A stretch of DNA of 64,000 nt from Paracoccaceae bacterium (lineage in GTDB: Bacteria > Pseudomonadota > Alphaproteobacteria > Rhodobacterales > Rhodobacteraceae). This document shows positions 6,377 through 28,406 of the stretch, in pieces. The stretch spans positions 1 through 64,000 of the forward strand of contig JASBTX010000018.1 in assembly GCA_030148225.1 (NCBI GenBank). The letters run 5' to 3'. The notes below the pieces were generated by a model. The model did not search any database. It saw only the letters and a program-made list of their open reading frames with translations, and was not told where the DNA came from. The translations under genes were made by a program, and so were the position numbers. Position 1 is the first letter of the stretch, and every line of letters begins with the position of its first letter.

Positions 6377-6393
6377 CCGGTTGGCATCCTGCT

Positions 6394-10747: not shown

Positions 10748-11785
10748 ATGCGATTTCTTGTAACCGGACATTGCGGCTATATCGGGCCGGTGCTGATCAG
10801 ACTTCTGCACGAAGCCGGGCATTCTGTTGTCGGTTTTGACACAGGGTATTTCCGCGATCTGATCGAGAACGCGCCTGAGTCCTGTTTCCCCGATGAGGAA
10901 ATTCGTAAAGATATTCGCGACATAGAACAAAGTGATTTCAAAGGTATAGATGCTGTTGTTCACCTCGCAGCACTGTCGAATGATCCTTTGGGTGAAATGG
11001 TTGAGAAGCAAACCCACGAGATCAATACCGTCGGAACTATTCGATGTGCGCAGGCGGCCAAATTGGCAGGAGTGGAGAGATTTGTTTTTGCTTCATCCTG
11101 CTCGATTTACGGTGCCTCAGGGGACGCAAAAACACCCTTGGACGAGAATGCGCCGCTGGCGCCCGTTTCGGCATATGCCGTTTCAAAGGTGGATTCTGAA
11201 GCAGCACTTCAACAACTGAAGGACGACAGCTTTTTCCCGGTCATGCTCAGAAACGCAACGGCCTACGGCGTTAGCCCGCGCATGCGCCTTGATTTGGTGG
11301 TCGCCAATCTTATGGCTTCGGGCTATGCAACGGGTACGATCAAAGTTCTGTCGGATGGCACGCCTTGGCGCCCGCTTGTTCATATCGAAGACATTTCGCG
11401 GGCTGCGCATTGCGCAGGAACCGCTGATCGAAATCTTTTTGAACATAACGTGTTCAATATCGGTGCGCGTGATTGCAACTATACAGTTGCAGACATCGCC
11501 AAAGCCGTCGCCGCTGAACTCCCCGGATGCAAAACCGAAATTACCGGCGAGGCGGGAAATGACCCCAGGTCCTACAGGGTTGATTTTTCGCGAGCGTTGA
11601 ACGGGTTGCCCGCATTTGAGCCTCAATGGAACGTGGAAAAAGGCGCGAAAGAGACGCTTGAATGGTTAAAGGCACACCCGGCTGATCTGGAACGACTTTT
11701 CGGACCTGATTTCATTCGTTTGAAACATCTTCGCAAGCTTTCTGACAACGGTCAGATCGACGAGGAATTCAGATGGGCTGTCTGA
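10748..11785 (+). CDS. NAD-dependent epimerase/dehydratase family protein (extended SDR)
   Basis: The 345-residue product starts directly with the Rossmann motif (MRFLVTGHCGYIGPVLIRLL). SSCSIYG and YAVSKVDSE give the Ser and YxxxK of the active site. GDPRSYRVDFSRA near the end is typical of the C-terminal substrate domain of sugar epimerases and reductases. AAAGGA lies about 9 bases before the ATG. It probably acts after the dehydratase, reducing or epimerising the 4-keto sugar. The exact reaction cannot be assigned. It is the last gene of the plus-strand block and ends 20 bp before the convergent membrane-protein gene. Confidence 0.85.
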   Translation: MRFLVTGHCGYIGPVLIRLLHEAGHSVVGFDTGYFRDLIENAPESCFPDEEIRKDIRDIEQSDFKGIDAVVHLAALSNDPLGEMVEKQTHEINTVGTIRCAQAAKLAGVERFVFASSCSIYGASGDAKTPLDENAPLAPVSAYAVSKVDSEAALQQLKDDSFFPVMLRNATAYGVSPRMRLDLVVANLMASGYATGTIKVLSDGTPWRPLVHIEDISRAAHCAGTADRNLFEHNVFNIGARDCNYTVADIAKAVAAELPGCKTEITGEAGNDPRSYRVDFSRALNGLPAFEPQWNVEKGAKETLEWLKAHPADLERLFGPDFIRLKHLRKLSDNGQIDEEFRWAV

Positions 11786-11805
11786 GTCTGAAAAACAGGT
11801 ATCGA

Positions 11806-13899
11806 TTAATATAGGGTCGGACGCTGATATAGCATTTCAAAGCTCTCCACCCCTTTTGGAACAAATACGACGACCTGCCCGAGATTGGCGGCGGCCCATT
11901 CAAGCGATTGCCCGCCCGATGCAGTTACTGACCACCATGGAAGGGGCGGGGCGTTGACAATAATCGCGCCGCCTGTTGCGACAGGAATATCAATCTGAAA
12001 CCCATCTGGTATCAGTGCAGTTGCAAGTGAACCCGCATCGATCGAATTTGGTGCAATAGCATCATCGGGCATTGTCGTGCGAATGGCCGCGTCCCCAAGC
12101 GGGGCGTTTTCGCGGATGTGATCTACAAATTCGTCGAAATTTGAATCAGCTGCAAAGGACGTCACGCTTGTTGCAGGATATGCACGTGGAAAAGGGTTTG
12201 GAAGTTCGTAGACAAAAATGTCCGGAGCCTTCCCGATTGCGGATATTGGCTGCTGAACCTGCGGTCCAGAGATTTTTGCAAGACCGTTTGTTTCAAGCTG
12301 CTTGAAACTCAGAATATAGCCAACGTTCGCGACCCTGAGCATATCCAGATTCAAATCGCGAGATATATCGTAGGCTTCGCAACAGGTGTTGAATTCGGCG
12401 CGAAACGGCAGGCCCGGGTTGTAGGCATGTGCCGGCATGTCCGTTTCGAGGATGAGTTCGCGCCAAAATTCGTAGGTCGACTTTGGGACAATCGTCGAAA
12501 TGCCATCAAAGCTTGATAATCCATAAGACACAGAGCTGTTGGGATCATAGCCGGTCGGAATGCCGACGACACGCGCATTCCGATTTTCGAACCAGTCCGG
12601 GTTTTGGAGATTGGAAATCTGTTCAAGGCGCGACAGGTTCCCGCGCGTTTTCATGTGCAGAACGGTATTCACCTTGAAAACGAACACCATTGCCAGCGCG
12701 ACGGAAATGCAGATTGCCGCTGGCAAATGCCCGTTGTCGGTGCGGACATCCATTCGAAGGCAAGCGGCAGCGGCGGCCGAAAGCATGACCATCGCGAAAG
12801 CACAATATTCCACATACCAACGGTAAGAGGTAAGAAAATCAAGTCCAATCTCACCCCATGGCACGGCCACAAGAAACGGCGTAATTATGCCCATTATCAA
12901 CGACATGGACCCTGCAATAAATATTTGCCGGTTCTTGAATCGTGTCGCCTGAACGAACGTGTAGATCAGCGGGACAAAGTAGGGCCAGCTTCCTGCATTG
13001 TAGGTCATCCGGAAGTTGAACATCCACTGTAGCTGGAATTTCAGATATCCGGCAAAATCGCCAAACATCGCAACTGATGGCGCGTCTGGTCGGCTGCTTT
13101 GCGGAACCATTTGAACCATGCCGACAATTGCCTCGGCAAAATTGGCGACCCATAGGATCGACATCAAAACGAGACCAAGAAAATACAAAACTACGTTGTT
13201 CGGTCTATGCCACACTGCCAGTGAAATTGCCGAAATCCACAGCCCGATCAGCCAGAAGAATGGATCGGCAAACAAAATGTAAAACAAGGCCACAAGGAAA
13301 AAAATGATGATGGGCCTTGCCTTAAATTCAAGGCGACAAAGGGCAAGCAAGACCAGGGGGATCGCGGCAATGGACACCCCGTAAAGGAATGTTAGGGACG
13401 TCGTGACATCAAAGCCTGCTGAAAAAAGCGCGCCAAATCCGAATGCGGCAAGGCGCGGCGTATGAAATCTTTTTCTGGCAAAGAGATATACTGACCACAG
13501 CGCAACAGACGTCACCAATATGCGCATCAGCACCACAACGAGCCAAAGCGGCATGACTTCAGACATCCAAAGCCGCCCAGAATAAATCGCGCCGCCTATT
13601 CGCCCCAGCGAGTACCGATCAACACCGCCCATCAATTCATGCAGAAAGAGCGCGTCCCGGTTATCCGCAAGATACGGGAAATAGCCAAGGAACATGAACT
13701 CGCCATCACCCCACTCCAACCGACTGAACGGGCCGAGCAGAATGCTGTCGCCCTGAACAACGAATATCCATAGTATCGACAGAATAGTGATGAAGTTCTT
13801 GCTGTCAGGAATGCTCATCGATCTGGAGACAATCGACAAGGAAAGATAGGCCGCAACAAGAACTATGTAGGGCGCCCAACCGAGCGCGAATGCGATCAC
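11806..13899 (-). CDS. Large polytopic membrane protein, GT-C/YfhO-like
   Basis: The 697-residue product (GTG start at 13899, AGGA upstream) has roughly ten or more hydrophobic segments in its first 430 residues, followed by a soluble C-terminal part. That part contains LRVANVGYILSF and NPFPRAYPAT, which resemble the periplasmic domain of YfhO-type glycosyltransferases. WGDGEFMF early in the first loop has acidic residues where GT-C enzymes carry a catalytic Asp. I infer a glycosyltransferase using a polyprenyl-linked sugar on the periplasmic side. It is the last gene of a four-gene minus-strand operon, 25 bp after the C-methyltransferase. Confidence 0.75.
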   Translation of the reverse strand: MIAFALGWAPYIVLVAAYLSLSIVSRSMSIPDSKNFITILSILWIFVVQGDSILLGPFSRLEWGDGEFMFLGYFPYLADNRDALFLHELMGGVDRYSLGRIGGAIYSGRLWMSEVMPLWLVVVLMRILVTSVALWSVYLFARKRFHTPRLAAFGFGALFSAGFDVTTSLTFLYGVSIAAIPLVLLALCRLEFKARPIIIFFLVALFYILFADPFFWLIGLWISAISLAVWHRPNNVVLYFLGLVLMSILWVANFAEAIVGMVQMVPQSSRPDAPSVAMFGDFAGYLKFQLQWMFNFRMTYNAGSWPYFVPLIYTFVQATRFKNRQIFIAGSMSLIMGIITPFLVAVPWGEIGLDFLTSYRWYVEYCAFAMVMLSAAAAACLRMDVRTDNGHLPAAICISVALAMVFVFKVNTVLHMKTRGNLSRLEQISNLQNPDWFENRNARVVGIPTGYDPNSSVSYGLSSFDGISTIVPKSTYEFWRELILETDMPAHAYNPGLPFRAEFNTCCEAYDISRDLNLDMLRVANVGYILSFKQLETNGLAKISGPQVQQPISAIGKAPDIFVYELPNPFPRAYPATSVTSFAADSNFDEFVDHIRENAPLGDAAIRTTMPDDAIAPNSIDAGSLATALIPDGFQIDIPVATGGAIIVNAPPLPWWSVTASGGQSLEWAAANLGQVVVFVPKGVESFEMLYQRPTLY

Positions 13900-13924
13900 A
13901 TCCCAATCCTCGATGCCATCGACA

Positions 13925-15187
13925 TCAGGGCTCCAATATTTTTATTTCCGGAAGTGGGAGCACGAATTTCGAGGTCAGTCCGCGTGAGCGCAGGTCCTGG
14001 CTGATCGGTTCCCAGTAGTGCCATGCGAGAAGCAGAACATAGTCGGGTTGTTCAGAAAACAAGATCGCGTTGTCGACCACAGGTTGGTGCAATCCAGGCA
14101 AATGCCGCCCCAGTTTGAGCGAGGTCGGTTGCTCGGCAAGATAGGGCATGAGATCCTTACCGAGACCGACGAAGTTCAACAAGGTGCTGGCGCGACCCGG
14201 GCAGGAATTGCCGACGAATCTCTGGCCGTTTTTCTCGGCAGTAAGCGCGAGATTGTATAGATCGCGTTTGCACTGGATGGCTTTCTGCCGGAACCTGTCA
14301 TAAACAGCGCCTTCATAAAGCCCGGCACTGCGCTCCTCGGCGATCAGATTTAATAGGTTCTGGGACACGGACGATGCATTTTTTCTGGCGACATACATCC
14401 TCACTGAGCCGCCATAGCTGGCAACACGATGTGCGTCGACGACTTCGAGACCGTAGTAATTGAAAAGCTTCACAACCGGTTTGATCGAGTAAGATCTCAG
14501 GTGCTCATGGTATATTGAATCGAATTGCACACCTTCGACAATGTCCAGTAGATAATGGTTTTCGAGGACAAAGACACCGTCTTCGTCCAACAGCTTTTCG
14601 ACGCCCCGGGTGATATCACCCAGATTGGCCGTATGCGCGAACATATTTGTGGCCGTTATGATCTTCGCCTTGCCATGCTGTGCAACGATTTCTTCGGCGA
14701 CCCTTTCGGAAAAGAAATCCTGAACCGAGTCTATATTATCCTGTATGGCGATCTGGGCGATATTTGTCGGTTCTACACCCAGGACGCGCATGCCCTGCCT
14801 TTTGAAACCTTTCAGGAGTGTTCCATCGTTTGAGCCGATATCGACGACAAGCGAATCTTTTGGTGTACTTTGTCGCTCAACGACATCAACAGACAGACGC
14901 TGAAGATGGTTGAACAGCTCTCGGGTGATCCCGCTGCGATAGGGGTATTCGGGATAATAAACGACATCGCCCGGAACGACGTAGTCCAGCTGCACAAGAC
15001 TGCAATCCAGACAACGCACAAGATGGAGTGGGTATGATGTTTCGGGCTCTTTTAACTGCTCGGGTGTTAACAACGAGTCGCAAAGCGGCTGATGACCCAG
15101 ATCGATAACCGAAGCAAGGTTTCTTGATCCACAAATCTGGCATTCTTCGATCCAGCCCGGGGAAAGATCATGATTGGGAATGTCCAT
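13925..15187 (-). CDS. SAM-dependent sugar C-methyltransferase (TylCIII-like)
   Basis: I start at the ATG at 15187 (MDIPNHDLSPGW) because GGAGG lies 5 bases upstream; the track start is a TTG overlapping that site. The product has 420 residues. The N-terminal zinc-binding part has CQICG and CLDC, the middle has the SAM site (VVDIGSNDGTLL, then GVEPTNIAQ), and FDSIYHEHLRSYS and GRASTLLNFVG match NDP-hexose 3-C-methyltransferases. Such enzymes add a branch methyl to a keto deoxysugar. Together with the dehydratase and nucleotidyltransferase it suggests a branched-chain deoxysugar. The gene is third in the minus-strand operon that starts with the GT2 at 17229. Confidence 0.87.
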   Translation of the reverse strand: MDIPNHDLSPGWIEECQICGSRNLASVIDLGHQPLCDSLLTPEQLKEPETSYPLHLVRCLDCSLVQLDYVVPGDVVYYPEYPYRSGITRELFNHLQRLSVDVVERQSTPKDSLVVDIGSNDGTLLKGFKRQGMRVLGVEPTNIAQIAIQDNIDSVQDFFSERVAEEIVAQHGKAKIITATNMFAHTANLGDITRGVEKLLDEDGVFVLENHYLLDIVEGVQFDSIYHEHLRSYSIKPVVKLFNYYGLEVVDAHRVASYGGSVRMYVARKNASSVSQNLLNLIAEERSAGLYEGAVYDRFRQKAIQCKRDLYNLALTAEKNGQRFVGNSCPGRASTLLNFVGLGKDLMPYLAEQPTSLKLGRHLPGLHQPVVDNAILFSEQPDYVLLLAWHYWEPISQDLRSRGLTSKFVLPLPEIKILEP

Positions 15188-15223
15188 AGCTGCCTCCAAT
15201 TTCCCGCAAACAAAATCGTGCTC

Positions 15224-16243
15224 TTACGGGTGCGATATTTCCGATATTTTGTTCAGTAGTTGCTGTACCTTCAACCCCTCGGAAAATGAAGGTTTCATTT
15301 CTGTTCCCGAGCGAATTGAATCGATAAAACGTTGTGCCAATCTGGATACAGGGGCAACCCGTTGATCTGTTTCTGCATTCAGTTTCGGCAGGTCACATTC
15401 GTAGGCGACATGTTCCTCCCGATCAGAGCCTGATCTGCATAGTGACAACTCGAAACCCATGTAACCTTTGTTTGCATTGACCAGAGAAATCCGACCCTGT
15501 TCACAATAGAAATCCAGTCGATGTCCAATTCCGGCTGCTGTGTCGTTCGAAAGGATCGCGGCACCGACCGCGCCGTTTTCAAATTCGAAAGAGATATTGG
15601 CAAAAGTTTCACCGGGGGCAAAATGTCCTTCCCGTCGTGTCAGATTGGCCGAAGTGATCGTAAACGGGCCACAAAACCACTCCAGATAATGAAGACTATG
15701 CGAACCAAAATGTGAAACCACGCCTCCGCCATGCGCAGAATTTGTTTTCCAGCCCGTGATGCTTCGCGCATTGTCAAAACTCTGACCAGTCCACGTGACA
15801 ACAACATAACTGATCTTTCCCAGTTCGTGCTGGTGCAAAAGCGCCTTGCATTTGCGCCAGGCAGGGTGTTCCGGAAACTGGAAGTCCACTGCGGTCACTA
15901 CCGAATTGGTTTTGGCAATGAGAGAGAGTTCTTCTGCGGCATCCAGATCAACTGCAAGCGGTTTTTCGGCAAATACCGGCAAGCCGCTCTTCAGGCAGGA
16001 CAAAGCGATGGTTTGCTGTGCAAGGGGCGGGACCGCCAGCACAGCAATATCGAACTCGTCAGAACCGAGCGCGGCCCGCCAGTCTTCAAACCTGTTCCTG
16101 ACACCGTATTTTTGCGCGGCCGCCGCCAGCCGTTCGGATGATGTGGCCGTGATCGAGGTAACTTCCACCCCTTCAGCCAGTTGAAAAGCGGGGATGAGGC
16201 AGTATGCGCCGTAGCCTGCGCCGAACACTCCGACGCGCGTCAT
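15224..16243 (-). CDS. Gfo/Idh/MocA-family oxidoreductase (second copy)
   Basis: The 339-residue product has the N-terminal NAD(P) site (VGVFGAGYGAYCLIPAF), FAEKPLAVDLDAAEEL with the EKP motif, and HGGGVVSHFGSHSLHYLEW, a loop often seen in family members with sugar or imine substrates. It starts at an ATG overlapping the GT2 stop by 4 bases (ATGA), so the two are translationally coupled. I infer a keto-sugar reductase or dehydrogenase in the same pathway as the C-methyltransferase. It is clearly distinct in sequence from the copy at 6394. Confidence 0.85.
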   Translation of the reverse strand: MTRVGVFGAGYGAYCLIPAFQLAEGVEVTSITATSSERLAAAAQKYGVRNRFEDWRAALGSDEFDIAVLAVPPLAQQTIALSCLKSGLPVFAEKPLAVDLDAAEELSLIAKTNSVVTAVDFQFPEHPAWRKCKALLHQHELGKISYVVVTWTGQSFDNARSITGWKTNSAHGGGVVSHFGSHSLHYLEWFCGPFTITSANLTRREGHFAPGETFANISFEFENGAVGAAILSNDTAAGIGHRLDFYCEQGRISLVNANKGYMGFELSLCRSGSDREEHVAYECDLPKLNAETDQRVAPVSRLAQRFIDSIRSGTEMKPSFSEGLKVQQLLNKISEISHP

Positions 16244-17229
16244 GCCTTTGAGCGGCTCTTTGTCCGCTTTGTCTTTTCGGTCGATTTGTCAAAGTTTAGA
16301 CGCTTGGCTTCAAGTACTTTTGATCCAAAGCGGACCTGCCCGTGGATGGAAAGAATGTACTCTCCCAAAATGCCGAGAAACAGAAACTGAACCCCTGAAA
16401 AGAGAAAGAAAGCGACGATCAGAGTTGAGATTCCGGGCTGCAGTGATGGATTGTCGCTCAAAAGTATCAGCAACATGTTTACGATACCGTACAAAATACT
16501 GCCGATCGACAGCATGAGGCCAAAAACGGTCATCAGTCGGATCGGCGTTGTGGTGAACGTGAACAATCCGTTCAGCGCAATATCCACCAGCGTCAGAAAC
16601 CGATTTTTGGAGAATCCTGTTTTACGTGCACGGACGAAGTAGGGAACACTATATGGTCGATGGCCGGCGTATGCGATGAGGCCTCGGATATACGGATCGT
16701 GATCATCATATGCGATCAGCGCCTCCACGACAGAAATGTCAACAAGCTGAAATTCTCCGACATCAACCGGAATATCAATGTTTGAGACTAGCTTTACCGA
16801 ACGGTAAAAAAGCCGTCTGAGATTGTGAAACACAAAACCTTCGTCGCGATTTTCCCGAACGCCCTGCACCACTTTGTGGCCTTTTTCCCAATGCATTACG
16901 AACTCGGCGATCAATTCTGGCGGATCCTGTAGATCAACGGCCATCATCACGAGCACTGCATCGCCAGTTGCCGACTTGAGCGCATTGTATACTGATCGCA
17001 ATGGTCCCACGTTGCGTGCATTCACGATCACGCGGACATTGGGATCTTCAGCTGCAATTTGCTCCAGAATTTGCGGCGTGTCATCGGTGGAGGCATTGTC
17101 AGCAAAGATATGCTCCAAATCGTAGCCAGGGAGTTTTTCTTCAAATACCCGGGCCACCGCCTCGTGGCATATTTCGACATTGCTACCTTCATTGAAACAA
17201 GGTGAAATTACGGTGATTTTCTTTTTCAT
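16240..17229 (-). CDS. Family 2 glycosyltransferase, DPM1/GtrB-like, with two C-terminal membrane helices
   Basis: The 329-residue product has a GT-A domain (VISPCFNEGSNVEICHEAV, FADNASTDDT, MMAVDLQDPPELI with the DxD-like motif) and two hydrophobic segments near 230-300, as in GtrB/ArnC-type polyprenyl-phosphate glycosyltransferases. These load a sugar on undecaprenyl phosphate for later transfer outside, which fits the GT-C-like protein in the same operon. The C-terminus is strongly basic (KTKRTKSRSKA). It is the first gene of its operon, and 258 bp separate it from the VWA gene. Confidence 0.9.
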   Translation of the reverse strand: MKKKITVISPCFNEGSNVEICHEAVARVFEEKLPGYDLEHIFADNASTDDTPQILEQIAAEDPNVRVIVNARNVGPLRSVYNALKSATGDAVLVMMAVDLQDPPELIAEFVMHWEKGHKVVQGVRENRDEGFVFHNLRRLFYRSVKLVSNIDIPVDVGEFQLVDISVVEALIAYDDHDPYIRGLIAYAGHRPYSVPYFVRARKTGFSKNRFLTLVDIALNGLFTFTTTPIRLMTVFGLMLSIGSILYGIVNMLLILLSDNPSLQPGISTLIVAFFLFSGVQFLFLGILGEYILSIHGQVRFGSKVLEAKRLNFDKSTEKTKRTKSRSKA

Positions 17230-17487: not shown

Positions 17488-18870
17488 ATGACCAGAACCT
17501 TGTTTTCCATTTGTGCTGTGATGTCACTGGCCATTGCCGGGCCGGTGAAAGCCCAGTCAAATCTGTTATTTATCGTCGACAGCTCAAACTCCATGTGGGG
17601 GCAGATCGACGGTGCGGCCAAGATAGACACCGCCAAATCGGTGTTGCGCGAAACGTTGGACACGCTCCCGCCCGAGGTTTCGGTCGGCATGCTGGCCTAT
17701 GGTCACCGGCGCAAAGGGGATTGTGGCGATGTGGAACTGGTCTCGCCCATCGGTTCGGATGCCGCGCAGCTTCGCGCGGTGGTTGGGCGGCTGACACCGC
17801 GGGGAAAGACGCCCATCGCCGCCTCGCTTCAGGCGGCGGCAGGGGCCTTTGACGGGCGACTGGAGCAGACCAACAACATCCTCCTGATATCGGACGGCAT
17901 AGAGACCTGCAGTGGCAATCCCTGCGCCGTGGCCGAAGAACTTGCCAAAAGGAACATAGACCTGAAGGTTCATGTCGTCGGGTTCAATGTCGATGCTGCG
18001 ACACGGGCACAGTTGCAATGCATCGCCGACAAGGGCCGTGGCCAGTATTTCGATGCCAGAAACGCGGCAGAATTCAGCGCGGCGCTGCAGCAGACACAGG
18101 AAATCGTGGCCGTCGTGGAGCCTGAGCCGGAACCTGCGCCCGCCCCTGAACCCGTACCCGAACCTGACCCCGCGCCGGTGATCTATTTCGAGGACGAGTT
18201 CGATGGCGATGATCTGGGCCCTGAATGGGTTCTGGCCAATCCCGACCCCGACAATTATCTGGTGGAAAACGGCGTTCTGACGCTGGTATCGCGCGACGGA
18301 ACCGAGGCCGGGCTGGCCGCCGGGCGCAACATCCTCACACTCGATATGCCTATCCCCAAGGGTGACTGGACGGCCACGGCGCGGCTGCTGGTCACACCCC
18401 AGACTATGGGTGAGATCATGCGCCTTGGTGTGGTGCGTGACGAGGCTAACGGCCTCTTCAGCTCGCTCATTCTTGAAAGCTACAACTATGCGCTGACCGA
18501 GATATTCGTCAGTGGTGACAAGCGCGCACGGGGAGAGGCCACGGGATTTCGTCGGGAAATCATGGAAATCACCGACCGCAACGTGGCGTTGCGCGCCGCG
18601 CAGTTCACCAGCCAGGTCGCCGCGGTGGAAATCAGGCTGGAAAAATCCGGGCGCAAATACACCGCCTTTGCCCGGCTTGAACCCGTCAACCCCGATGCCG
18701 AAGGCGCACCGGATGGCGAATGGCTCTCTGTTCAGGAATTGTCATCGCTCAAAGCACCGGGCGATGCATTTGCCCTGATTTTTGGCAGCACCAGCAACGG
18801 GTACACCGCCGCCGAGGGCGAAGGGGTGATCGAAATCGACTGGTTCAGGATCGAGGTCCCCGCCGGGTAA
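17488..18870 (+). CDS. Secreted VWA-domain protein with C-terminal lectin-like (ConA-like) domain
   Basis: I start at the ATG at 17488, which has AAGGAG 7 bases upstream; the track start is 32 codons earlier. The 460-residue product has a signal peptide (MTRTLFSICAVMSLAIAGPVKA), a von Willebrand A domain with an intact metal site (D31-S-S-N-S, then LISDGIETC), a Pro-Glu repeat linker near residue 210 (EPEPEPAPAPEPVPEP), and a C-terminal domain of about 225 residues opening YFEDEFDGDDLGPEW. That opening resembles laminin/ConA-like sandwich domains. The next gene encodes the same C-terminal domain alone. VWA domains bind proteins or ligands through a metal ion. I infer an extracytoplasmic binding role. 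Confidence 0.85.
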   Translation: MTRTLFSICAVMSLAIAGPVKAQSNLLFIVDSSNSMWGQIDGAAKIDTAKSVLRETLDTLPPEVSVGMLAYGHRRKGDCGDVELVSPIGSDAAQLRAVVGRLTPRGKTPIAASLQAAAGAFDGRLEQTNNILLISDGIETCSGNPCAVAEELAKRNIDLKVHVVGFNVDAATRAQLQCIADKGRGQYFDARNAAEFSAALQQTQEIVAVVEPEPEPAPAPEPVPEPDPAPVIYFEDEFDGDDLGPEWVLANPDPDNYLVENGVLTLVSRDGTEAGLAAGRNILTLDMPIPKGDWTATARLLVTPQTMGEIMRLGVVRDEANGLFSSLILESYNYALTEIFVSGDKRARGEATGFRREIMEITDRNVALRAAQFTSQVAAVEIRLEKSGRKYTAFARLEPVNPDAEGAPDGEWLSVQELSSLKAPGDAFALIFGSTSNGYTAAEGEGVIEIDWFRIEVPAG

Positions 18871-18931
18871 TCGTATGACGGGCAGGATGATTGCCCGTAT
18901 CAGCAGCCCCTATCAGAAGGAGGAGGAGCAT

Positions 18932-19687
18932 ATGACCATACGCACGATTCTGGGGGCGGCAGCACTTGCGCTTTCCGCCGGCCCGCTTCTGGCCCAGACG
19001 GTCTATTTTGAAGACGGGTTTGATGGCGATGATCTCTCGGCGGACTGGGAATTGCTAAACCCTGATCCGGATGCCTATCTTGTCGAGGCGGGTCAGCTTA
19101 TCCTGCTGACCGCCGACGGTGTACCGGCCGCGTATGATGCGGCGACGAATGTATTGCGCCTGACCCGGCCCGTGCCCAAGGGCGACTGGACCATGACCGC
19201 GCGGTTCAACATGGCGCCGCAGACTATGGGCGAGGCGTTGCGCATTGGTGTGGCGCGGGATGGGCAGAACGGGCTTTTTTCGTCATTCGTGCTCGAGGCC
19301 TATAATTATGCGTTGACCAATATCCGGGTCGATGCGGATAAGCTGGCCAAAGGCGAAGTTACCGCGTTCCGCCGCACCGCGATGGGGATCGAGGAGCGTG
19401 ATATAGAACTCCGCTCGGGCCAGTTCAGCGATCGTGTGGCAGCCGTCGAGCTGCGGCTTGAGAAGGTGGGGCGCAAGTACCAGTCGTCGATCCGGTTTGA
19501 GCCGGTCAATCCCGGAGCCGATGACGCCCCGTCGGGTGAATGGATCGGCGTTCAGAAACTCACCTCGCTCAGAAGTCCCGGTGATGCGTTTGTCCTGATC
19601 TTCGGCAGCGCCAGCAACGGCTATACGCCTGATGGCGGCGAGGCACTGGTCGAGGTCGATTTCGTCAGGATCGACGTGGCGGAATAA
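18932..19687 (+). CDS. Secreted stand-alone ConA-like domain protein, paralog of the VWA protein C-terminus
   Basis: The start at 18932 has a very strong ribosome site (AAGGAGGAGGAG). The 251-residue product has a signal peptide ending ALAQ and then one domain that aligns almost without gaps to the C-terminal half of the previous protein: YFEDGFDGDDL, PVPKGDWTMTARF, APQTMGEALRIGVARD, NGLFSSFVLEAYNYALT, SPGDAFVLIFGS. The two copies share roughly half their residues by eye. The fold guess (glycoside-hydrolase-associated ConA-like sandwich) rests on the FDGDDL...W opening. It lies 61 bp after the VWA gene and 5 bp before the next gene. Confidence 0.85.
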   Translation: MTIRTILGAAALALSAGPLLAQTVYFEDGFDGDDLSADWELLNPDPDAYLVEAGQLILLTADGVPAAYDAATNVLRLTRPVPKGDWTMTARFNMAPQTMGEALRIGVARDGQNGLFSSFVLEAYNYALTNIRVDADKLAKGEVTAFRRTAMGIEERDIELRSGQFSDRVAAVELRLEKVGRKYQSSIRFEPVNPGADDAPSGEWIGVQKLTSLRSPGDAFVLIFGSASNGYTPDGGEALVEVDFVRIDVAE

Positions 19688-19692
19688 CGGCG

Positions 19693-21219
19693 ATGTCGCG
19701 ATCCGGGCAAGGCGTTTCTGGGTTGCGGGCAGGGCAATTGTCATTCGCGGTGATCTGCCTTGCGGCAGCCGCAGCGCCGGTACGTGCCGAGGTGCCGCCG
19801 CATCTGGCAAGCATGGCCCGGATGCTGGTCACGCAATCGGCCGGAGTTTTCGCAGCTGTGGACCCCGATACGCCTGAAGGCTGGGCCGAAACCACGCTGG
19901 AACAGACCATCCGTAGCGCGGGTGTTCAGCGCTGGAGCGCGCGCAACCTGCCGGAATGGACAGGGCAGGAGGCACTGAACAAGGCGCTTGCGGCGGATAG
20001 TGAGACGCCGGTTGATGCAGCTGCGCTGGTGACGGCAGCGCGCAAAACAGGGTTACGTCAGGCGGTTGCGGATTATCTGGATGACAGCGGGCAGGAGGTG
20101 CCGCCTGATTCAGCGCTTGCCCGGGTCACCGCCGATGTCGGGGCGGCACTTGTCAGCGGTTATCAGGACCTTGCCCGGTCCTATGTTCTCGAAGGAACCG
20201 AAGGGCCGGATCTCGAGCTTGACTGGACGCCTGAGGCCGGCCTTTTCCGGTTGCAGATCGCACCGCCCGGTGACGCCTATACCGAGCCTTTCCTGACCGC
20301 ATTGTCAGGTTCGGTTCTGCCAGCCGTAGAAGGTTCTGAGGATCTGATCACGGGTACTGTCGCTGAGGGTGACCAGCCACAGGATGGCAGGGCCGCCACC
20401 GCATTGATGCTGTTACCCTTACCTGATCCGCTGAAAACTCTTGATGCAGAAGACCTGAGAGAGATCAGGCGCTCGGTCTTTGGGGAATGGGCGGCCGATG
20501 ACGGTGCGATCTGGTACATACATCCCACCGGCAGCCGGACGTCTGAGCCTGACACGGATGAGACCCCGCAAGAAAACAAGACCGCCTCGGCGCTACAGCG
20601 CCTGAACGCAGCATTGGCCGAGCTGGAAAGCCTTCAGGGCGACAAGCGCTATGTCTGGGTCAATACCGAGACGGGCGAGCGCGATGAACAGGAGAAATTT
20701 CGCCGCAAGAAAGATCCCTGGGACTATGCCGGAGAAGAACTCTCTGGGGCTGGCACACCCGACGAAATCAACGCACTGACTGCTGAAATTTCCCGCCTCA
20801 AGGCCACGCTCGAACAACGGGGCGAGGTGCAGCAACCGCCAGAGCTGGATGAACCCACCGCAGATGGACGGGTTGTCGCGCTCGATCTGTCCTATACCCG
20901 CACTGATGGCTCACTCGCGCGGTTTAATCAGGCCCGGCTTGCCGGTAATTCACTGACCGGCACCAGAACCCTGCGCGAAGCCGCCGATATCACCGATCTG
21001 CCTGCAACCGTCGTGAGCCAGCTGATTTCAGGATGGTCACCGCCCGAATGGGTCGAGTTTGAGCTTGAGGTTGATGAAACCGGCAATCTTTACGTCACAG
21101 GCAGCGTCTTTCGCCTGCATGTGACCTATAATGCCGATACGCGCGTTGTATCGTCGATCCATACCGCCTATGCGCGCCCGGTTCGCCTGACGCGCGATCC
21201 CGACAAAAAGGCACCCTGA
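19693..21219 (+). CDS. Secreted protein of unknown function
   Basis: The 508-residue product has an N-terminal hydrophobic stretch ending AAPVRAE that looks like a signal peptide. The rest is acidic and rich in Thr, Asp and Glu. Between about 295 and 390 there are short helical segments with heptad-like spacing (LQRLNAALAELESLQ, INALTAEISRLKATLEQ) around a charged WVNTETGERDEQEKF motif. The C-terminal part looks beta-rich (FELEVDETGNLYVTGSVFRLHV). I do not recognise the family. Its stop overlaps the next start by one base, so it is co-translated with the coiled-coil protein. Confidence 0.75.
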   Translation: MSRSGQGVSGLRAGQLSFAVICLAAAAAPVRAEVPPHLASMARMLVTQSAGVFAAVDPDTPEGWAETTLEQTIRSAGVQRWSARNLPEWTGQEALNKALAADSETPVDAAALVTAARKTGLRQAVADYLDDSGQEVPPDSALARVTADVGAALVSGYQDLARSYVLEGTEGPDLELDWTPEAGLFRLQIAPPGDAYTEPFLTALSGSVLPAVEGSEDLITGTVAEGDQPQDGRAATALMLLPLPDPLKTLDAEDLREIRRSVFGEWAADDGAIWYIHPTGSRTSEPDTDETPQENKTASALQRLNAALAELESLQGDKRYVWVNTETGERDEQEKFRRKKDPWDYAGEELSGAGTPDEINALTAEISRLKATLEQRGEVQQPPELDEPTADGRVVALDLSYTRTDGSLARFNQARLAGNSLTGTRTLREAADITDLPATVVSQLISGWSPPEWVEFELEVDETGNLYVTGSVFRLHVTYNADTRVVSSIHTAYARPVRLTRDPDKKAP

Positions 21220-24110
21220 TGCTGGTCGATGTGATCATTGCCGCGCAGCGCATCCGGCGCATGGCCCTGGCCGGACTGGCTGCCCTTTGCATGCTGCTGT
21301 CGGTCTGGTTGCCGTCTGCGGGTATGGCGCAGACCCCTGATTTGGGGGGGATCTGGCAGGTGTCGGGATATACGCGCGCCTTCGGCAATCTTGATTTCCT
21401 CGTCCGGATCACCCGAACGGGTGAAAACGAGTGGGAGGCCGAGAAACTCAGCAGTTCGCGCTATGTGCCCACCGGGCGTACGCATTTCCGCGCCCGCGTC
21501 GAGGGGGATATGCTCAGGGCCACCGTTCAGGTCGCCTTTCCCGGATTTGCAGAACCGGAATGGGAACGTCATCAGTTCAGCATCGAAACCGATGATGATG
21601 GCGCAGTCCGCAGCATCACGCTGGCCACCGGAGAGCAGCATTTTCTGGATGAGACCGGTGAAAACTCGGTCACGGATACATGGACATATACGCCCTGGCC
21701 CGAAGATCAGCTTTTGCTGAGTGCACCAAGGTTGAGCTGGAACGGTTATGCGGCCGAGCGGACGCTGGCACGTCGGCAGTTGCAGGCGGCCGAAGGCGAT
21801 CTGGAACATTGGCAGTCCCGGCGCGAGAGCGAGGCCGAAGGACTGGAGCGGTTGTTGCGCGATCAGGCGGCCACCCTTGGCCATAGCGCGGTACTTGCTG
21901 CCCGTTACGAGGAGGCCTGGCGTCGTCTGGCCGATGCCGCCACGCCCGAAGGTGATCCCCCGCCCGACCGCACTGAACTGCCTGAGCGATTGCGCGTTCT
22001 ATATGATCAGCAGACCGCCGCGCAGGATGAAATCGAACGTCTGGAACAGATCCTGCTTGATCACTCGAGTGGCAGGGCCACGCAATCGGATGACACAATC
22101 GCGGACCTCTTTTCGCGTATCGATCAGTCCCGCGCCTTTATCGAACGGCTGTCGCGCACCATCAGCCGCCTTCGGGATGAGATGGGTCTGGGCCCAGAGC
22201 CTGACCCGGCCGCAAATCGTGACGACCGTGTCAGCGATGCAGAAGCCGCCTTTGAAGAGGCCGGTGATGCCTATTTCGATGCGCGCCGCGAAGTTGCCCG
22301 TCTGGCCAGCGATATCGGCGTTGCCGAGGGTCAGATCGCGCTTGCCGCTGAAGAAATTGCGGATGCAGAGGAGCGGGCGGCAAATGCGCGGGCGCGCCTG
22401 AAATTTCTGTCGCAATCATCATCCCTGCAAAAGGTTGAAATCTATACAAGCGGGGATGAACCACGTCTGGTATTCGAAGCGATCCCCAGCGGGCTTGATG
22501 CGGAACTGCGGGACCTGCAGGCTATTCTTGACGAGATATTGGCGCTCGTTGAACGCGCCGAAGACACGCGCGAGCGTTTCCGCGCGGCCCATGCCGACGC
22601 CTTTTATCGGGGTACACTTCTGCGGACGCGGCTCGAACGTGTCATCTATGAAAACGCGGCCTTGATGGCTTATGGTGCTGCGCATGTTCGCGTGGGTGAG
22701 CTACTGCTGTCTTATGCTACCGGCGGACCGATCGGTGTCCTCATCGACATAGTCACTTCGATCATCTTCCAGTTTGTCGCCTATGAAGACGGTGCCGTCT
22801 TCTCGAATTTCGACGAGGCCGATATCAGTCGCGAGTTTCGTGCCCGGATTGCCCAGAATGAAGATGCCGAGCCGGACCCGGCCGAGATCTGTGCGGGCCT
22901 GGACCTCGAGATATCGCAATCGGTGCAGGCGCTGTTGCGGACGCGCACATCGCAGAACATGCAGGCCTATTTCGATGCGCGCGCCGCCGGGGGCGGGATC
23001 GATCCGGTCACGGGCGAGGTCACTGGAAACACCTATCAGCGCATTCAGCCCAATCTCCTGAATTACTTTGCCATGGCGGGGCAAAGCGCGGGCAATGATG
23101 CGGTGGGGGCATCCATTGGCGAGCGAATTGCCAAGAGCGATGATCTGGCGCGCGCCAATGCCGAACATTCCGCCCGCGTGGTGCAAAGGGCGGCACAATG
23201 GGCGGTCTACGCGGTGGATGATCATCGCATGATTGATGTTGCCACCACGCCCGCGCGGCGCGCCGCCGCCGCTGAAGCCCGCACCGCCGCATTGCGCAGT
23301 TATGCCGCGCAATATCCCGAACTTGCCGATGATATCGCCCGCAATATCGAATGGACCAATGCCCGCCTGCAGGCCTTCGAAGAGGCGCTGATCGTACGCG
23401 AAGGCGGCGCGGCCTCGGTCGAGGCGGGTGTTCTGCGTGCTCAGGAAATCGGGGCCGAGGTCGCGCGCGCCCAGCGCGAACTGCGTGAAGTTATCGGATC
23501 AAGCCTGCCCCAGATTGACTTTAACCAGACGCTTAGCCAGCAACGCGTGCTCTGGCAGCGACTGTCGGCCAGGCTTGAAACTCTAAATGCCGTCCAACGC
23601 CAGTTTGCCCGCTGGGGCCTGAGTGGCCGGGGCAAATCGGCCAACATCAAGGCGGGGGCGCTGAATATCATCTATAGCGTGGGCATGGGATTTATGCTGG
23701 ATCAGCTAATGGTGTCGCTGCAAGAACGGGAGTTTGACATCTGGATGGACATTTTCGCCGCCGAGGCCGAGCAGAACATGATGTATCGGGGCTGGCAGGC
23801 CGCGCGCTGCATACATTGGGCCTTTCTGGATCAGCGGGACGCGCTGCAGCGCGACTATGCATTGCTCTATGACGTCTATGACCCCGAAGCAGAATTGCAG
23901 GTTTTGCGGTCCGAGCCATTTGGCAATCACAATGGCCTGCGCATGGACCTGATCTTTGATCCGCCCGCCGGATTTGCCATGCAGGCGCAGATCGCAGGTG
24001 TACCCTGCGCGAAAAGCGCGCGCTCATCCTGCCGCATCCCCCAGGGCGGGCTGGCCGTAACCAGCACCACGATCCTGCCCGTCGATGTCGATCTTGGCCC
24101 GCCGGATTAG
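21219..24110 (+). CDS. Large secreted coiled-coil protein of unknown function
   Basis: The 963-residue product starts at an ATG sharing a base with the previous stop (AAAGG upstream). A signal peptide (GLAALCMLLSVWLPSAGMAQ) is followed by a beta-type domain near 40-170 (LGGIWQVSGYTR). Then come long Ala/Glu/Arg-rich coiled coils (about 175-410), a hydrophobic segment (LLLSYATGGPIGVLIDIVTSIIFQFV, about 500-525), a second helical block and a C-terminal region with GLRMDLIF and CAKSARSSCR. It does not match a family I know. It may form an extended periplasmic or outer-surface assembly with the three upstream products. The broken gene at 3435-5261 has a loosely similar plan (signal peptide, helical middle, late hydrophobic stretch). 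Confidence 0.75.
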   Translation: MLVDVIIAAQRIRRMALAGLAALCMLLSVWLPSAGMAQTPDLGGIWQVSGYTRAFGNLDFLVRITRTGENEWEAEKLSSSRYVPTGRTHFRARVEGDMLRATVQVAFPGFAEPEWERHQFSIETDDDGAVRSITLATGEQHFLDETGENSVTDTWTYTPWPEDQLLLSAPRLSWNGYAAERTLARRQLQAAEGDLEHWQSRRESEAEGLERLLRDQAATLGHSAVLAARYEEAWRRLADAATPEGDPPPDRTELPERLRVLYDQQTAAQDEIERLEQILLDHSSGRATQSDDTIADLFSRIDQSRAFIERLSRTISRLRDEMGLGPEPDPAANRDDRVSDAEAAFEEAGDAYFDARREVARLASDIGVAEGQIALAAEEIADAEERAANARARLKFLSQSSSLQKVEIYTSGDEPRLVFEAIPSGLDAELRDLQAILDEILALVERAEDTRERFRAAHADAFYRGTLLRTRLERVIYENAALMAYGAAHVRVGELLLSYATGGPIGVLIDIVTSIIFQFVAYEDGAVFSNFDEADISREFRARIAQNEDAEPDPAEICAGLDLEISQSVQALLRTRTSQNMQAYFDARAAGGGIDPVTGEVTGNTYQRIQPNLLNYFAMAGQSAGNDAVGASIGERIAKSDDLARANAEHSARVVQRAAQWAVYAVDDHRMIDVATTPARRAAAAEARTAALRSYAAQYPELADDIARNIEWTNARLQAFEEALIVREGGAASVEAGVLRAQEIGAEVARAQRELREVIGSSLPQIDFNQTLSQQRVLWQRLSARLETLNAVQRQFARWGLSGRGKSANIKAGALNIIYSVGMGFMLDQLMVSLQEREFDIWMDIFAAEAEQNMMYRGWQAARCIHWAFLDQRDALQRDYALLYDVYDPEAELQVLRSEPFGNHNGLRMDLIFDPPAGFAMQAQIAGVPCAKSARSSCRIPQGGLAVTSTTILPVDVDLGPPD

Positions 24111-24170: not shown

Positions 24171-25295
24171 TCAGGTGGCCCAAAAGTCCGGGTCCAGCGG
24201 AAAGTCGAAGTCGCGCGCCTGATCGACAAAATTTACCGTATCCGGCGGGTGTTCGGGCACGGGTGAGCGGCCTTCGGCATGTGCCTCCACGATCATGGGC
24301 AATGGACGTGTCAGGGTAACCGACCCCCGAAAGGCATCAAATTTCAGTTCATCCACGCCCGAACCAATGTAATGACGCACTAGCTTATTGAAGTTTTCGG
24401 TGAAATTGCGGCGGTCAAAAACGAGCTTCTCTGCGACCCGACGCCGGATATGCCACGGATCGAGATTGCGGGATATCAGGTCCTGTACCGCGTGCGCGAC
24501 CTGCACGGGATCGTCGCCGGCCCAGATCGCAGTTTGACCGTCGAGATATCTGTTTCTGCCACCGACCGAGTTGGTGGTCACTACCGGAAGGCCGGCCATG
24601 AGGTATTGCATGGTCGATCTCGAACCACCTTCAGCTTCGCTCAGAGTCAGACCCACCCTTGCATGGCCCAGATAGGCATTGACCTGTTGCAGCGATAGTT
24701 GAACAAACTGCCCCTGGCGCATGCGATCATTGGCAAAATAAGCGTGCCGTAGGCGAGGTTGAACCCGTTGGACGTAAGGGTCAGCCATATCCATAGGTGT
24801 CGAGTAGATCAGCATCAGATCATCAATTCCGGATGCCAGTTCGATGCGTTTTTCCGATGATATGCGGGCGTTGTAGACCGCGTCGAATACCGGCAATTGC
24901 GGCAGAAACGGCGCGCGCGGGTACCAGATCCGCTCATCCTCGAACATGGTGGGCTGCGCCATGAGCGCCGGGATGCCATCACCGGCAAGGCGGTTCATTT
25001 CCTGCTCATTGGCGGCGCAGATAATGAAATCGTGGTTTGGGAATACTTCCTTGGCGGCCCAATAGGCGTCGGGAAAATTATAGCTGTGCCCGGATTCCAC
25101 CGTCCAGTGCAGGACGATGAAATGAAGGCCGTTATCCCGGTCGAAAAGCTGTGGCATCAGTTCGCCGTAACGTGCAATCGCAAGATAGGCACCGGGGCTG
25201 GAGGATATGGTGATCAGCGGGTCCGTCGACAGGACCTTGATGGCGCAATAGACCTGTTCGTCACGGCCGAAATGCGCGCTTTCCCATTCGTCCAT
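24171..25295 (-). CDS. Glycosyltransferase (GT4-like), paralog of the next gene upstream
   Basis: I start at the ATG at 25295 (MDEWESAHFGRDEQ), 11 bp after the previous stop; the long N-terminal extension in the ORF track overlaps the upstream gene and has no family features. The product has 374 residues. LTLSEAEGGSRSTMQYLMAGLPVVTTNSVGGR is the donor-binding region of GT-B enzymes, with the E-x7-E type acidic residues. It shares DPLITI near the start, FDAVYNAR and a C-terminal DPDFW with its neighbour, so the pair arose by duplication. It is the last gene of the minus-strand surface-glycan block. Confidence 0.82.
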   Translation of the reverse strand: MDEWESAHFGRDEQVYCAIKVLSTDPLITISSSPGAYLAIARYGELMPQLFDRDNGLHFIVLHWTVESGHSYNFPDAYWAAKEVFPNHDFIICAANEQEMNRLAGDGIPALMAQPTMFEDERIWYPRAPFLPQLPVFDAVYNARISSEKRIELASGIDDLMLIYSTPMDMADPYVQRVQPRLRHAYFANDRMRQGQFVQLSLQQVNAYLGHARVGLTLSEAEGGSRSTMQYLMAGLPVVTTNSVGGRNRYLDGQTAIWAGDDPVQVAHAVQDLISRNLDPWHIRRRVAEKLVFDRRNFTENFNKLVRHYIGSGVDELKFDAFRGSVTLTRPLPMIVEAHAEGRSPVPEHPPDTVNFVDQARDFDFPLDPDFWAT

Positions 25296-25306
25296 ATAGT
25301 CGCGTC

Positions 25307-26401
25307 TCAACTCGGCCACCAATAGTTCGGGTCGGGATCGGATGGAAAGCCGGCCGGCGTGATGGCATCGGGTTTGGACGGCGCGTGATAGGCTTGCAGT
25401 TGCTGGCCGTGCAGCGCGATCGTGTCGTCCAGCGAAGGCGTTCCGATTATCGCCCCGCGCATCTGATGAAATGGCAAAAACGGTGCATCGCCCCCCAGCA
25501 GATGGTCCAATGTGCGGTTTAACTGACGTTCCATGATGGCGCGCTCGTGGGCCAGATAGCGCCCGGTCTGGGCGCGGATGGCCGCCCGTGGCAATCGCGC
25601 CCGTTTCAATTCCCTGACTGCCGCCCAAACCGCATCCGGATCAGGCGCCGTGATACGCGAATAGGCGGGATCATAGTATCGCGTCCGACTGCCCAGCGCT
25701 TCGGTGCTGACAACCGGGCATCCGCAAAGCAACGCCTCGATCGACGTCCGCATATACCCCTCGCGCGCAGACAGCGCGAGGGCGGCGGCGGCATTGGCAT
25801 GGGCCTGATTGATCTGGTCCGGCATCAGATAGTTGTACCGACCAGAGGCGTCGAAATTTTCGATATTCGCCTTGGGCAGTTTCCTGCGAACTTCTGCTAT
25901 CTCCCGGTTGAATTCAGGGGAATATTTGCCGGTTGTGATCAGGTTTAGCCGGGGAATGGCCGAGGCGAGCTCGTGCCGCTTCGTCAGATCGGGGCGGGCA
26001 TTGTAGATCGCGTCAAAGGATCGAAATCGCGAAACGGAGGGTTTGACCACCCGGTTGCGCGTCTCGTCGATCAGGATCGATCCGTTGCAGGTGATCGCGG
26101 TCAGGCCACGTGCCGACAGAAGGGCTGTTTCCCATTCATTCAGTGTCAGGAACACAGCATGATGATGCGGCAGGTCTTTGGCAAACTGCGAAACGGCGGC
26201 TTCAAATTCTTCAAGCGATACATCTTCAATTGTCACAAAAAAGCCAATAAAATGAACGGCTTGTTTGGCTTCGGCGATACGGGGCAGGAAATCCAAAGCC
26301 TCACCCAGATAGAGGCGCGGCGGTTCGGTTTCGGTCAGTGTAATCAATGGATCCTCGGACAGGATCGACAGTGGCATGCCGAATTGGGGGCGTTTCTTCA
26401 T
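25307..26401 (-). CDS. Glycosyltransferase (GT4-like)
   Basis: The 364-residue product has LALSAREGYMRTSIEALLCGCPVVST, the C-terminal donor-binding helix-loop of GT-B glycosyltransferases, and FDAIYNARPDLTKRHELAS in the linker region, which the paralog at 24171 also has. The N-terminal domain (LSEDPLITLTETEPPRLYLG) is likewise shared. The C-terminus ends DPDPNYWWPS. The start overlaps the sulfotransferase stop by 4 bases (ATGA). Donor and acceptor are unknown. A role in building a sulfated surface glycan is inferred from the neighbour. Confidence 0.82.
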   Translation of the reverse strand: MKKRPQFGMPLSILSEDPLITLTETEPPRLYLGEALDFLPRIAEAKQAVHFIGFFVTIEDVSLEEFEAAVSQFAKDLPHHHAVFLTLNEWETALLSARGLTAITCNGSILIDETRNRVVKPSVSRFRSFDAIYNARPDLTKRHELASAIPRLNLITTGKYSPEFNREIAEVRRKLPKANIENFDASGRYNYLMPDQINQAHANAAAALALSAREGYMRTSIEALLCGCPVVSTEALGSRTRYYDPAYSRITAPDPDAVWAAVRELKRARLPRAAIRAQTGRYLAHERAIMERQLNRTLDHLLGGDAPFLPFHQMRGAIIGTPSLDDTIALHGQQLQAYHAPSKPDAITPAGFPSDPDPNYWWPS

Positions 26402-27291
26402 ATATCGCTGGTCAGAAGCTCGGGGGCATTTTCCTGGAAATAGTCGAATATTTCAGTGATATTGCCAACCCGTTCCGCTGAGCCCTGTCGTTGAAGTTTC
26501 ACATCCAATTTGCCTTGAGGATCGAGGTAAATCCCCAGCGCCGTGGCAACCCGCGCCAGCGTCCGCTGCGCACGAAGCCCCGCGATATCTTCGTAGAAAG
26601 CGGGTATGACTGGCCCGGAATACCCGCTGAGATAGCTGTCGAACTGGCGCTGCAGTGCAAAGGCCGCCCGTGCCTCTTGCAGGACATCCGCCGGGTGCAG
26701 AAACACGATTTCGGGCCGGTGTTCCAGATGCGCCCGGTCATCGGTCACCTGATTGCCCTCTGGCGTCTTTGCCCATTCGCCGGTCTGCAACAGAACCTGA
26801 TGCGACACGGCAAGATGAAAGATGCTGTTGCGCTTAAGATGCAGAAGCGGCATCTGCCATTCCGCCAATAGCTCAAGCAGCCGCGGCATCGGCACCGAAG
26901 CCTGATCCGGTACGCCAAAGCGGTAAGCGTCGACATATTTGACATCCAGCACGAGCCGCGCGTTGCGGGGCATCCCGTCGAGCAGAAAGCCGAAAAAGGC
27001 ACGTATCACCTTTTCCAGATCGTCGATCTCCTGATCAACCTCGGGGCATGTCCGGCGAAATTCAGCAAAGCTGCGCGGGATGTCGACGCCGTCGAAACGG
27101 TGAAACACCTCGCCTTCGCAGGAAATACCATCCAGCGTTTTCAGCATGTCCTTGAACAGATGCGAACCCGAACGATAATGCGACAGCAACAGGATGAACC
27201 GCGCGCGGTCCTCGTCGCGGAACATTTCGCAATAATCTGCAAAGCTGCGAAAGGCCGGTCTGCTGGCACCGGCCATCACATCATCGGGCAT
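26398..27291 (-). CDS. Sulfotransferase, LPS/NodH-like
   Basis: The 297-residue product carries LLLSHYRSGSHLFKDMLKTL, the P-loop-like 5'-phosphosulfate-binding motif of PAPS-dependent sulfotransferases related to NodH and Stf0, and later LLHLKRNSIFHLAVSHQV with the Arg/Ser of the 3'-phosphate-binding part. CEGEVFHRF fits the family's substrate loop. It probably transfers sulfate from PAPS to a glycan made by the adjacent glycosyltransferases. It lies 7 bp after the frameshifted outer-membrane gene and overlaps the next glycosyltransferase by 4 bases. Confidence 0.85.
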   Translation of the reverse strand: MPDDVMAGASRPAFRSFADYCEMFRDEDRARFILLLSHYRSGSHLFKDMLKTLDGISCEGEVFHRFDGVDIPRSFAEFRRTCPEVDQEIDDLEKVIRAFFGFLLDGMPRNARLVLDVKYVDAYRFGVPDQASVPMPRLLELLAEWQMPLLHLKRNSIFHLAVSHQVLLQTGEWAKTPEGNQVTDDRAHLEHRPEIVFLHPADVLQEARAAFALQRQFDSYLSGYSGPVIPAFYEDIAGLRAQRTLARVATALGIYLDPQGKLDVKLQRQGSAERVGNITEIFDYFQENAPELLTSDI

Positions 27292-27298
27292 GTTCTGA

Positions 27299-27985
27299 TC
27301 AGAATTCCGAGCGGAGCTGCAACTCGAATGTTGTCAGGTTGGACTTGGTGCCGACACTTGTCTGGTTGCCGCGCGTCAGGGTTGCGGTCAGATCTGCGCC
27401 CGATCCCAGAAAATAGGTGGCGCGCAATCCTACCATGTCACGTTCATATGTCGGTTCGCGAACGGCATTGAATGCAGGACCAAGCTTGATGTTGCCACCT
27501 GTGTTGAACAGGTAATGCCCACCCACGAATGTGCCTTCGCTGGCATCTGTATATTCTACCAGACCGACAATACTGTCGCCATTGGCGAAATCGCCATCAT
27601 ATTCGAGCATGGCAAATGCGCCGGATTTATTGAAATCCGTCGCTGCCGCAGGGGTGTTGGTGACTTCGACATTGGCGACACCCAGCGCAACGGTCAGAGA
27701 ACCCGGTCCGGCGGTCATGTTATAGGCACCCGACAATCTGACAGCGGTGTTCACGCCAGAGCCGCCCGTGTAGGTATAGGTTGCGCGACCCACACCAAAG
27801 CGCAGTGCGATACCGTCATCAAGGTTGCCGGTAATTGCCTGACGCAGATCAAGCTGCGCATAACCGCTGCTATCGCTGCTGGAATTGCCCAGAACTGAGG
27901 ATTTCGGTTCTGTGGCCATCAGCCAGTGCGGGCGCGGCTGCCGTCGTCAGTGCGAGAGCAAGTGCGGAGATAGTGAACGGCTCAT
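27299..27985 (-). pseudogene. Outer-membrane beta-barrel (porin-like) gene with frameshifted signal peptide
   Basis: The 206-residue ORF from 27919 is a repeating amphipathic beta pattern ending LQLRSEF, the C-terminal Phe signature of outer-membrane barrels, but has no signal peptide. Upstream, an ATG at 27985 has an excellent AGGAGG site but stops after 12 codons. Read one frame over, the same DNA gives FTISALALALTTAAAPALADGH, a perfect signal peptide with its cleavage site. The initiating ATG and the barrel are in one frame and the signal peptide in another. One base lost near codon 3 and one gained near the cleavage site would restore the gene. It may be a decayed gene or a sequencing artefact. 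Confidence 0.7.
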
Positions 27986-28021
27986 CGAAGCCTCCTGAAG
28001 TTTCGGTAGGTTTCTTTGAGG

Positions 28022-28339
28022 TTATGACGCTACAAAAATTACGCCCTGACCTTCCAGCAGGCTGGAGGTGCTGCGCGGCATCTTGAGACCGTAAAGCGCG
28101 ACTGCATCGATCCCGTCCGTTGCGTTCTGCCGGATACGTTCCTGAGCGATTGAGGTGTATTTGCTCTCGGGGAATTCGAGCAGGAACTCGGTGTAAGCCT
28201 CGACAGATCCGGCCTTTTCAACCTCGGCCCATTTGACATCGACCGGCATCATCTGATCGCCGGACGGAACCGCCGCGCTCGCCCCAGAGGCGATTCCGAT
28301 TGCCGAGAGGTTGGCCAGCAGTATTTTCATTATTTTCAT
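28022..28339 (-). CDS. Small secreted protein with a TPR-like helical segment
   Basis: I start at the ATG at 28339 (MKIMKILLANLSAIGIASGASA), which has GGGAG 8 bases upstream. The product has 105 residues, a signal peptide cut near SGASA, and VEAYTEFLLEFPESKYTSIAQERI, which resembles one helical hairpin of periplasmic TPR proteins such as YbgF. The C-terminus (LEGQGVIFVAS) is hydrophobic. I do not recognise the family. It lies between the barrel gene and the large GT2 gene in the same direction. Confidence 0.65.
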   Translation of the reverse strand: MKIMKILLANLSAIGIASGASAAVPSGDQMMPVDVKWAEVEKAGSVEAYTEFLLEFPESKYTSIAQERIRQNATDGIDAVALYGLKMPRSTSSLLEGQGVIFVAS

Positions 28340-28406
28340 GATCGATCTCCCAGATTCGCCCACAGAATACAGTATCTTGCACGATACGAAAGTGCGTGTG
28401 GTGATA

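Follow-up and report, generated by a model that had tools for sequence, protein, structure and literature searches.

A rare and apparently undescribed gene cluster coding for a predicted exported VWA–lectin-like protein and its partners

Described VWA systems and organization of the cluster

The literature on VWA relatives of the present cluster covers CglB and the DUF1194 proteins near T11SS genes (PMC12282271), as well as the MoxR-vWA systems (PMC7159879); the cluster itself is not found there. CglB is a VWA surface adhesin of gliding myxobacteria, whose VWA domain is thought to act in adhesion (PMC12282271). Both CglB and the product of gene 1 are exported VWA proteins with a MIDAS. However, gene 1 reaches only 16.9 bits against the CglB model NF033757 (NCBIfam, cut-off 200), and it differs from CglB by its lectin-like domain, by genes 3 and 4 alongside and by having no lipoprotein signal that could be seen. 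DUF1194 VWA-like proteins, which are mostly Sec-exported and Rossmann-type with a MIDAS, are encoded near T11SS genes in Rhodobacteraceae and have no known function (PMC12282271). Gene 1 comes from the same bacterial family and is likewise exported with a MIDAS, but PF06707 (DUF1194) is absent from its Pfam matches at E ≤ 1. In the MoxR-vWA ternary conflict systems, which are NTP-dependent and chiefly intracellular, VWA proteins act with variable partners (PMC7159879). A VWA protein coupled to variable partners is also the picture here, although all components look exported. Neither a T11SS-type gene nor a MoxR/AAA ATPase is present among the annotated neighbours at 5.5-17.2 kb and 24.2-32.6 kb of the window (the whole stretch of 64,000 nucleotides that was analysed).

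Gene 1 itself falls in the VWA subfamily of the alphaproteobacterial "YGHR" exported proteins, which carry the generic name "VWA domain-containing protein". Matches to this subfamily occur in 47 of 148 relatives. Unlike the cluster, most of these proteins have no second lectin-like copy, gene 3 or large partner. No named system matched the cluster, and a limited search of open-licence papers gave no description of it, in line with the initial annotation, which had called it not described. The cluster is genuine and rare, and apparently undescribed. It consists of four ORFs with the following features:

17488..18870, +: gene 1, 460 aa; signal-peptide-like N-terminus, VWA domain, linker and lectin-like domain
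Gene 1, residues ~24-200: VWA domain with complete MIDAS
Gene 1, residues ~208-228: Pro/Glu-rich linker
18172..18861, +: lectin-like (possibly LamG/ConA-like) domain fused to the VWA domain, gene 1 residues ~229-457
18932..19687, +: gene 2, 251 aa; signal-peptide-like N-terminus and free-standing second lectin-like copy
19693..21219, +: gene 3, 508 aa; new exported family with seven members
Gene 3 motifs: conserved G-x-W at ~264-266; W-N...R helical hairpin with beta tip at ~296-375; WSPPEW-type motif at ~448-453
21219..24110, +: gene 4, 963 aa; exported large partner
Gene 4 parts: N-terminal beta region ~40-160; partly coiled-coil middle, 171-463 and 714-761; Cys-containing C-terminus
Gene 4, residues 503-521: hydrophobic segment, not conserved as such in the homologue from L046 (see below)

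The coordinates and lengths, and the spacing of 61 bp, 5 bp and then a 1-base overlap, are as initially annotated. By hydropathy, each of the four products has a single N-terminal hydrophobic segment of the signal-peptide type, as had also been claimed. Neither a lipobox nor an outer-membrane barrel was noticed among the products. The RBS quality is good for genes 1 and 2: the ATG of gene 1 is preceded by an RBS-like AAGGAG, and gene 2 has a strong RBS (AAGGAGGAGG). For genes 3 and 4, translational coupling seems likely, and the reading frames of both are real, as they align over the full length with homologues in another order. A pattern scan of the cluster region for promoters and terminators gave a site count not above that of shuffled sequence, and the "operon" label thus rests on spacing and conservation. 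On this basis, the single operon proposed earlier stands as an operon-like unit of exported proteins, all four of which recur in L046.

The cluster is embedded in a polysaccharide-biosynthesis region (window positions 5546-17229 and 24171-32587), with genes for glycosyltransferases, a C-methyltransferase, GFO/IDH oxidoreductases, an epimerase, a nucleotidyltransferase and a flippase-like LPG_synthase_TM protein. The GC content is 0.61 in the cluster, 0.506 in the left flank (6.0-17.2 kb), 0.568 immediately to the right and again 0.61 past 32.6 kb; in the polysaccharide region, it falls to 0.50 at 6-16 kb. This region is probably a horizontally acquired surface-glycan island. The polysaccharide setting is probably incidental, given that the neighbouring genes vary from locus to locus and that the other loci examined lack such surroundings. 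Three long ORFs of the window have no Pfam match at E 1e-4: 11806-13899 (-, 697 aa), 30683-32587 (-, 634 aa) and 32700-34310 (+, 536 aa).

The VWA–lectin-like protein and the gene 3 family

Gene 1 scores above the Pfam cut-offs for VWA domains (PF13519, E 1.4e-13, 51.9 bits against 27; PF00092, 41.1 bits against 23.8). Its full MIDAS, made of D31-x-S33-x-S35, T108 and D136, is invariant across 13 aligned VWA relatives, and so are its four Cys. These features agree with the metal-dependent binding domain that the initial annotation had predicted. Its "two copies of one ConA-like domain" hold as far as the two copies are concerned, gene 2 being 60% identical to residues ~229-457 of gene 1 across 229 aa. 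The ConA-like label itself is plausible but weak, with hits that are sub-threshold in Pfam (GH43_C2, E 0.06 and 0.015) and no match of the domain to PDB sequences. At another locus, an exported caspase (Peptidase_C14, E 4e-39) is fused to the same lectin-like domain (L051:761-2710), which indicates that the domain was shuffled between VWA and caspase proteins.

A profile of the lectin-like domain has matches in 14 of 397 genomes of the family, and strong ones with both copies in three only. Scanning the genome collection with the lectin-like alignment yielded nine loci. In L046, an Afifella MAG from another order, each of the four genes has a homologue, and these homologues lie side by side on the same strand. 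They are ordered as VWA–lectin-like gene, lectin-like gene, gene 4 homologue, gene 3 homologue and a small Cys-rich exported protein, genes 3 and 4 being swapped relative to the window. In L052, a gammaproteobacterial MAG, a VWA–lectin-like gene is found with a 1216-aa exported protein and a gene 3 homologue. On plasmids, tblastn with the relatives' genes gave generic VWA matches only.

Genes 3 and 4 have no convincing match in Pfam, NCBIfam, PADLOC or PDB sequences, which bears out the remark that two of the four products lack a recognised family. Single-sequence searches with gene 3 found nothing in the plasmid collection, or in 148 relatives apart from the window's own genome, and a scan of viral contigs gave no match either. 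Its AF2 model is poor overall (pLDDT 46); the helical hairpin with its beta tip reaches ~80, and the remainder is low. Fold searches with the models of genes 3 and 4 returned nothing at E ≤ 0.001.

Homologues of gene 3 are now present in seven genomes, i.e., the window, L046, L052, L074, L075, L085 and L086. Two of these, L074 and L075, belong to the same family as the window and were added by scanning already-collected loci. A gene 3 profile gave two new loci (L085 and L086) in 298 genomes of the order of L046, and only L052 itself in 274 gammaproteobacterial genomes. The window's gene 3 is 42% identical to its L046 homologue and 22-25% to those of L074 and L075. In all seven genomes, gene 3 is clustered with a VWA–lectin-like gene, at most about two genes apart, and in L085 and L086 it lies directly downstream of it. 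This adjacency is partly ascertained, as five of the seven loci were reached through the VWA or lectin-like route; L085 and L086 (2/7) came from the gene 3 profile alone, an unbiased route. The cluster is conserved: the VWA–lectin-like gene and gene 3 stay together in 7/7, and the full set recurs in L046. The set of four is not fixed, however, since gene 2 is missing at most gene 3 loci, and its domain was duplicated or homogenised separately by lineage.

Large partners and inheritance of the cluster

The description of gene 4 as a 963-residue coiled coil was overstated: residues ~40-160 are predicted as beta structure, and heptad patterns occur in five stretches only (171-242, 284-324, 331-405, 424-463 and 714-761). 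These stretches sum to 276 residues, compared to a mean of 145 and a maximum of 258 after shuffling. The one homologue of gene 4 that was found, L046:11703-14609, is full-length and 38% identical. Single-sequence searches detected none in 148 relatives outside the window's genome, 385 class members or the plasmid collection, and scans of the genome collection and of viral contigs were equally without match. The AF2 model of gene 4 is poor (pLDDT 41). A calycin/lipocalin-like barrel, which would be closed and 8-stranded, was considered for the N-terminal beta region; in this low-confidence model, the region has a weak likeness to beta barrels of small size, at TMt about 0.5-0.58 and E ≥ 0.037. 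Matches of gene 4 to colicin and SMC folds were rejected as chance helical similarity. Model confidence for genes 3 and 4 does not suffice to assign a fold.

At the other loci, different large exported proteins are found. A protein of the gene 4 type is present in the window and L046, one of 1210-1216 aa in L052, L074 and L075, and one of 761 aa in L086; in L085, a coiled coil is fused to gene 3 and a 378-aa protein is added. In the sister lineage, where gene 3 is missing, the VWA–lectin-like pair is followed by an exported giant of ~2900 aa (L048-L050) or by no large protein at all (L047 and L072). The positions are as follows:

L048:10718-19459, L049:10718-17938 (ORF cut) and L050:2881-11721: ~2900-aa exported giants behind the VWA–lectin-like pair, no Pfam family
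L074:4555-8187 (-), L075:11941-15573 and L052:2471-6121: 1210-1216-aa exported partners

The 1210-1216-aa partners are a related pair of types, with a common N-terminal region and a divergent C-terminus. By eye, kinase-like motifs can be seen in the large proteins of L074 and L075, papain-like ones in that of L052 and a nucleotidyltransferase-like GSxxxxSDYDL stretch in the giants of L048 and L050; none of the three was confirmed by profiles. Domain searches of the large partners gave no enzyme, toxin or secretion domain at a useful E-value. Homology of all large proteins was considered, and profile–profile comparison between the types (most profiles holding 1-3 sequences) gave no similarity. 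A calycin-like G-x-W barrel common to them has no sequence support. The suggestion that the products are parts of one assembly therefore stands for an exported unit that is kept together, but not for a fixed one, the large protein being replaced in most relatives.

The trees of gene 3 and of the VWA domain are compatible, joining the window with L046, L085 with L086 and L074 with L075, so that the two are inherited jointly. In the VWA tree, the gene 3 carriers come out with a single nested clade in which gene 3 is missing. The window groups with L046 although the two belong to different orders, and L074 and L075, from its own family, are far more divergent. This pattern fits a cassette moved by horizontal transfer. 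A phage origin of the cluster has no support. In the window, L046 and L053, the two lectin-like copies cluster genome by genome; in L047-L050 and L072, they form separate old clades. A constraint joining the VWA-fused lectin-like copies of the window and L046 was rejected (AU p 0.00035). According to these trees, the tandem pair originated, or became homogenised, on more than one occasion.

Possible roles of the cluster

The adjacency of genes 1-4 is by itself no proof of a complex. It is nevertheless highly improbable that an orphan VWA–lectin-like pair merely lies beside two unrelated orphan genes. The single-sequence searches, which missed genes 3 and 4 in the 148 relatives and gene 4 in the 385 class members, would agree with such chance neighbours. 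The whole set in L046, the position of gene 3 beside VWA–lectin-like genes in all seven genomes and the compatibility of the two trees argue against chance neighbours, which are refuted for genes 1 and 3, and for gene 4 by L046 only. A passive surface or matrix structure is conceivable, if doubtful. The cluster would encode an adhesin or lectin bound to the cell's own polysaccharide, with coiled-coil spacers drifting so fast that their homology is lost. The polysaccharide-biosynthesis region around the window's cluster, the lectin-like domains and the heptad-rich helices point this way. Against it, such a setting is missing at the other loci examined, the large protein of L075 is not heptad-rich compared to shuffles, and gene order and extra genes vary.

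Delivery in a conflict or toxin system, with the large protein as an exported effector (a pore-former or enzyme) that the VWA–lectin-like protein and gene 3 target, load or restrain, seems rather unlikely. It would account for the fact that large proteins without sequence relationship occupy one slot, for the patchy distribution and for the relatedness across orders, and the motifs seen by eye would fit. SUKH proteins are frequently toxin immunity proteins, and a SMI1/KNR4 (SUKH)-like gene (L085:7912-8739; E 4.7e-5, slightly short of the Pfam cut-off) is located ~500 bp upstream of the VWA–lectin-like gene of L085. However, neither gene 4 nor the large proteins of the relatives show a toxin, immunity or secretion domain at a useful E-value, and the window's cluster has no immunity-like gene, unlike a polymorphic toxin. 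Mostly, whole proteins vary rather than C-terminal tips behind a conserved N-terminus. Among anti-phage defence models (PADLOC), genes 1-4 gave only LmuB (E 0.012), on a helical stretch of gene 4, which is unconvincing.

Our main reading, to which we give a probability of roughly 50%, is that genes 1-4 encode a modular device of the envelope or cell surface, made of exported proteins. Sec export would place all four products in the periplasm or beyond. The VWA–lectin-like protein is expected to bind in a Mg2+-dependent manner, with an envelope polymer, a glycan or a partner protein as the probable ligand. The free lectin-like copy (gene 2) may pair with the fused copy or broaden its binding. 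Gene 3 could be the adaptor coupling this binding module (genes 1 and 2) to the large protein; besides the VWA–lectin-like protein, it is the one component kept across all these lineages. The large protein, here gene 4, would then be the lineage-specific working or spanning part. More tentatively, the device might swap partners, with a constant Mg2+-dependent VWA–lectin-like receptor and gene 3 adaptor serving interchangeable, unrelated large proteins. Such a system would resemble conflict systems with a constant receptor and a variable effector in its logic, but would act wholly outside the cytoplasm. Modular systems for conflict or surface display would thus have an extracytoplasmic equivalent.

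Genes 3 and 4 define at least two new families of exported proteins that are tied to a MIDAS-bearing VWA protein, in a cassette that appears to be carried between orders of Alphaproteobacteria and is also present in a gammaproteobacterial MAG. More examples can be sought by a simple rule, i.e., gene 3 beside a VWA–lectin-like gene, with a variable large partner. A Cys-rich fifth gene was not found in the window's genome (89% complete; searched without a positive control). Such a gene, for a small exported protein of 138-140 aa, ends the cluster in L046 (16163-16585; no Pfam match) and L086 (6473-6889, -), and the two proteins are strongly homologous (phmmer 3e-50).
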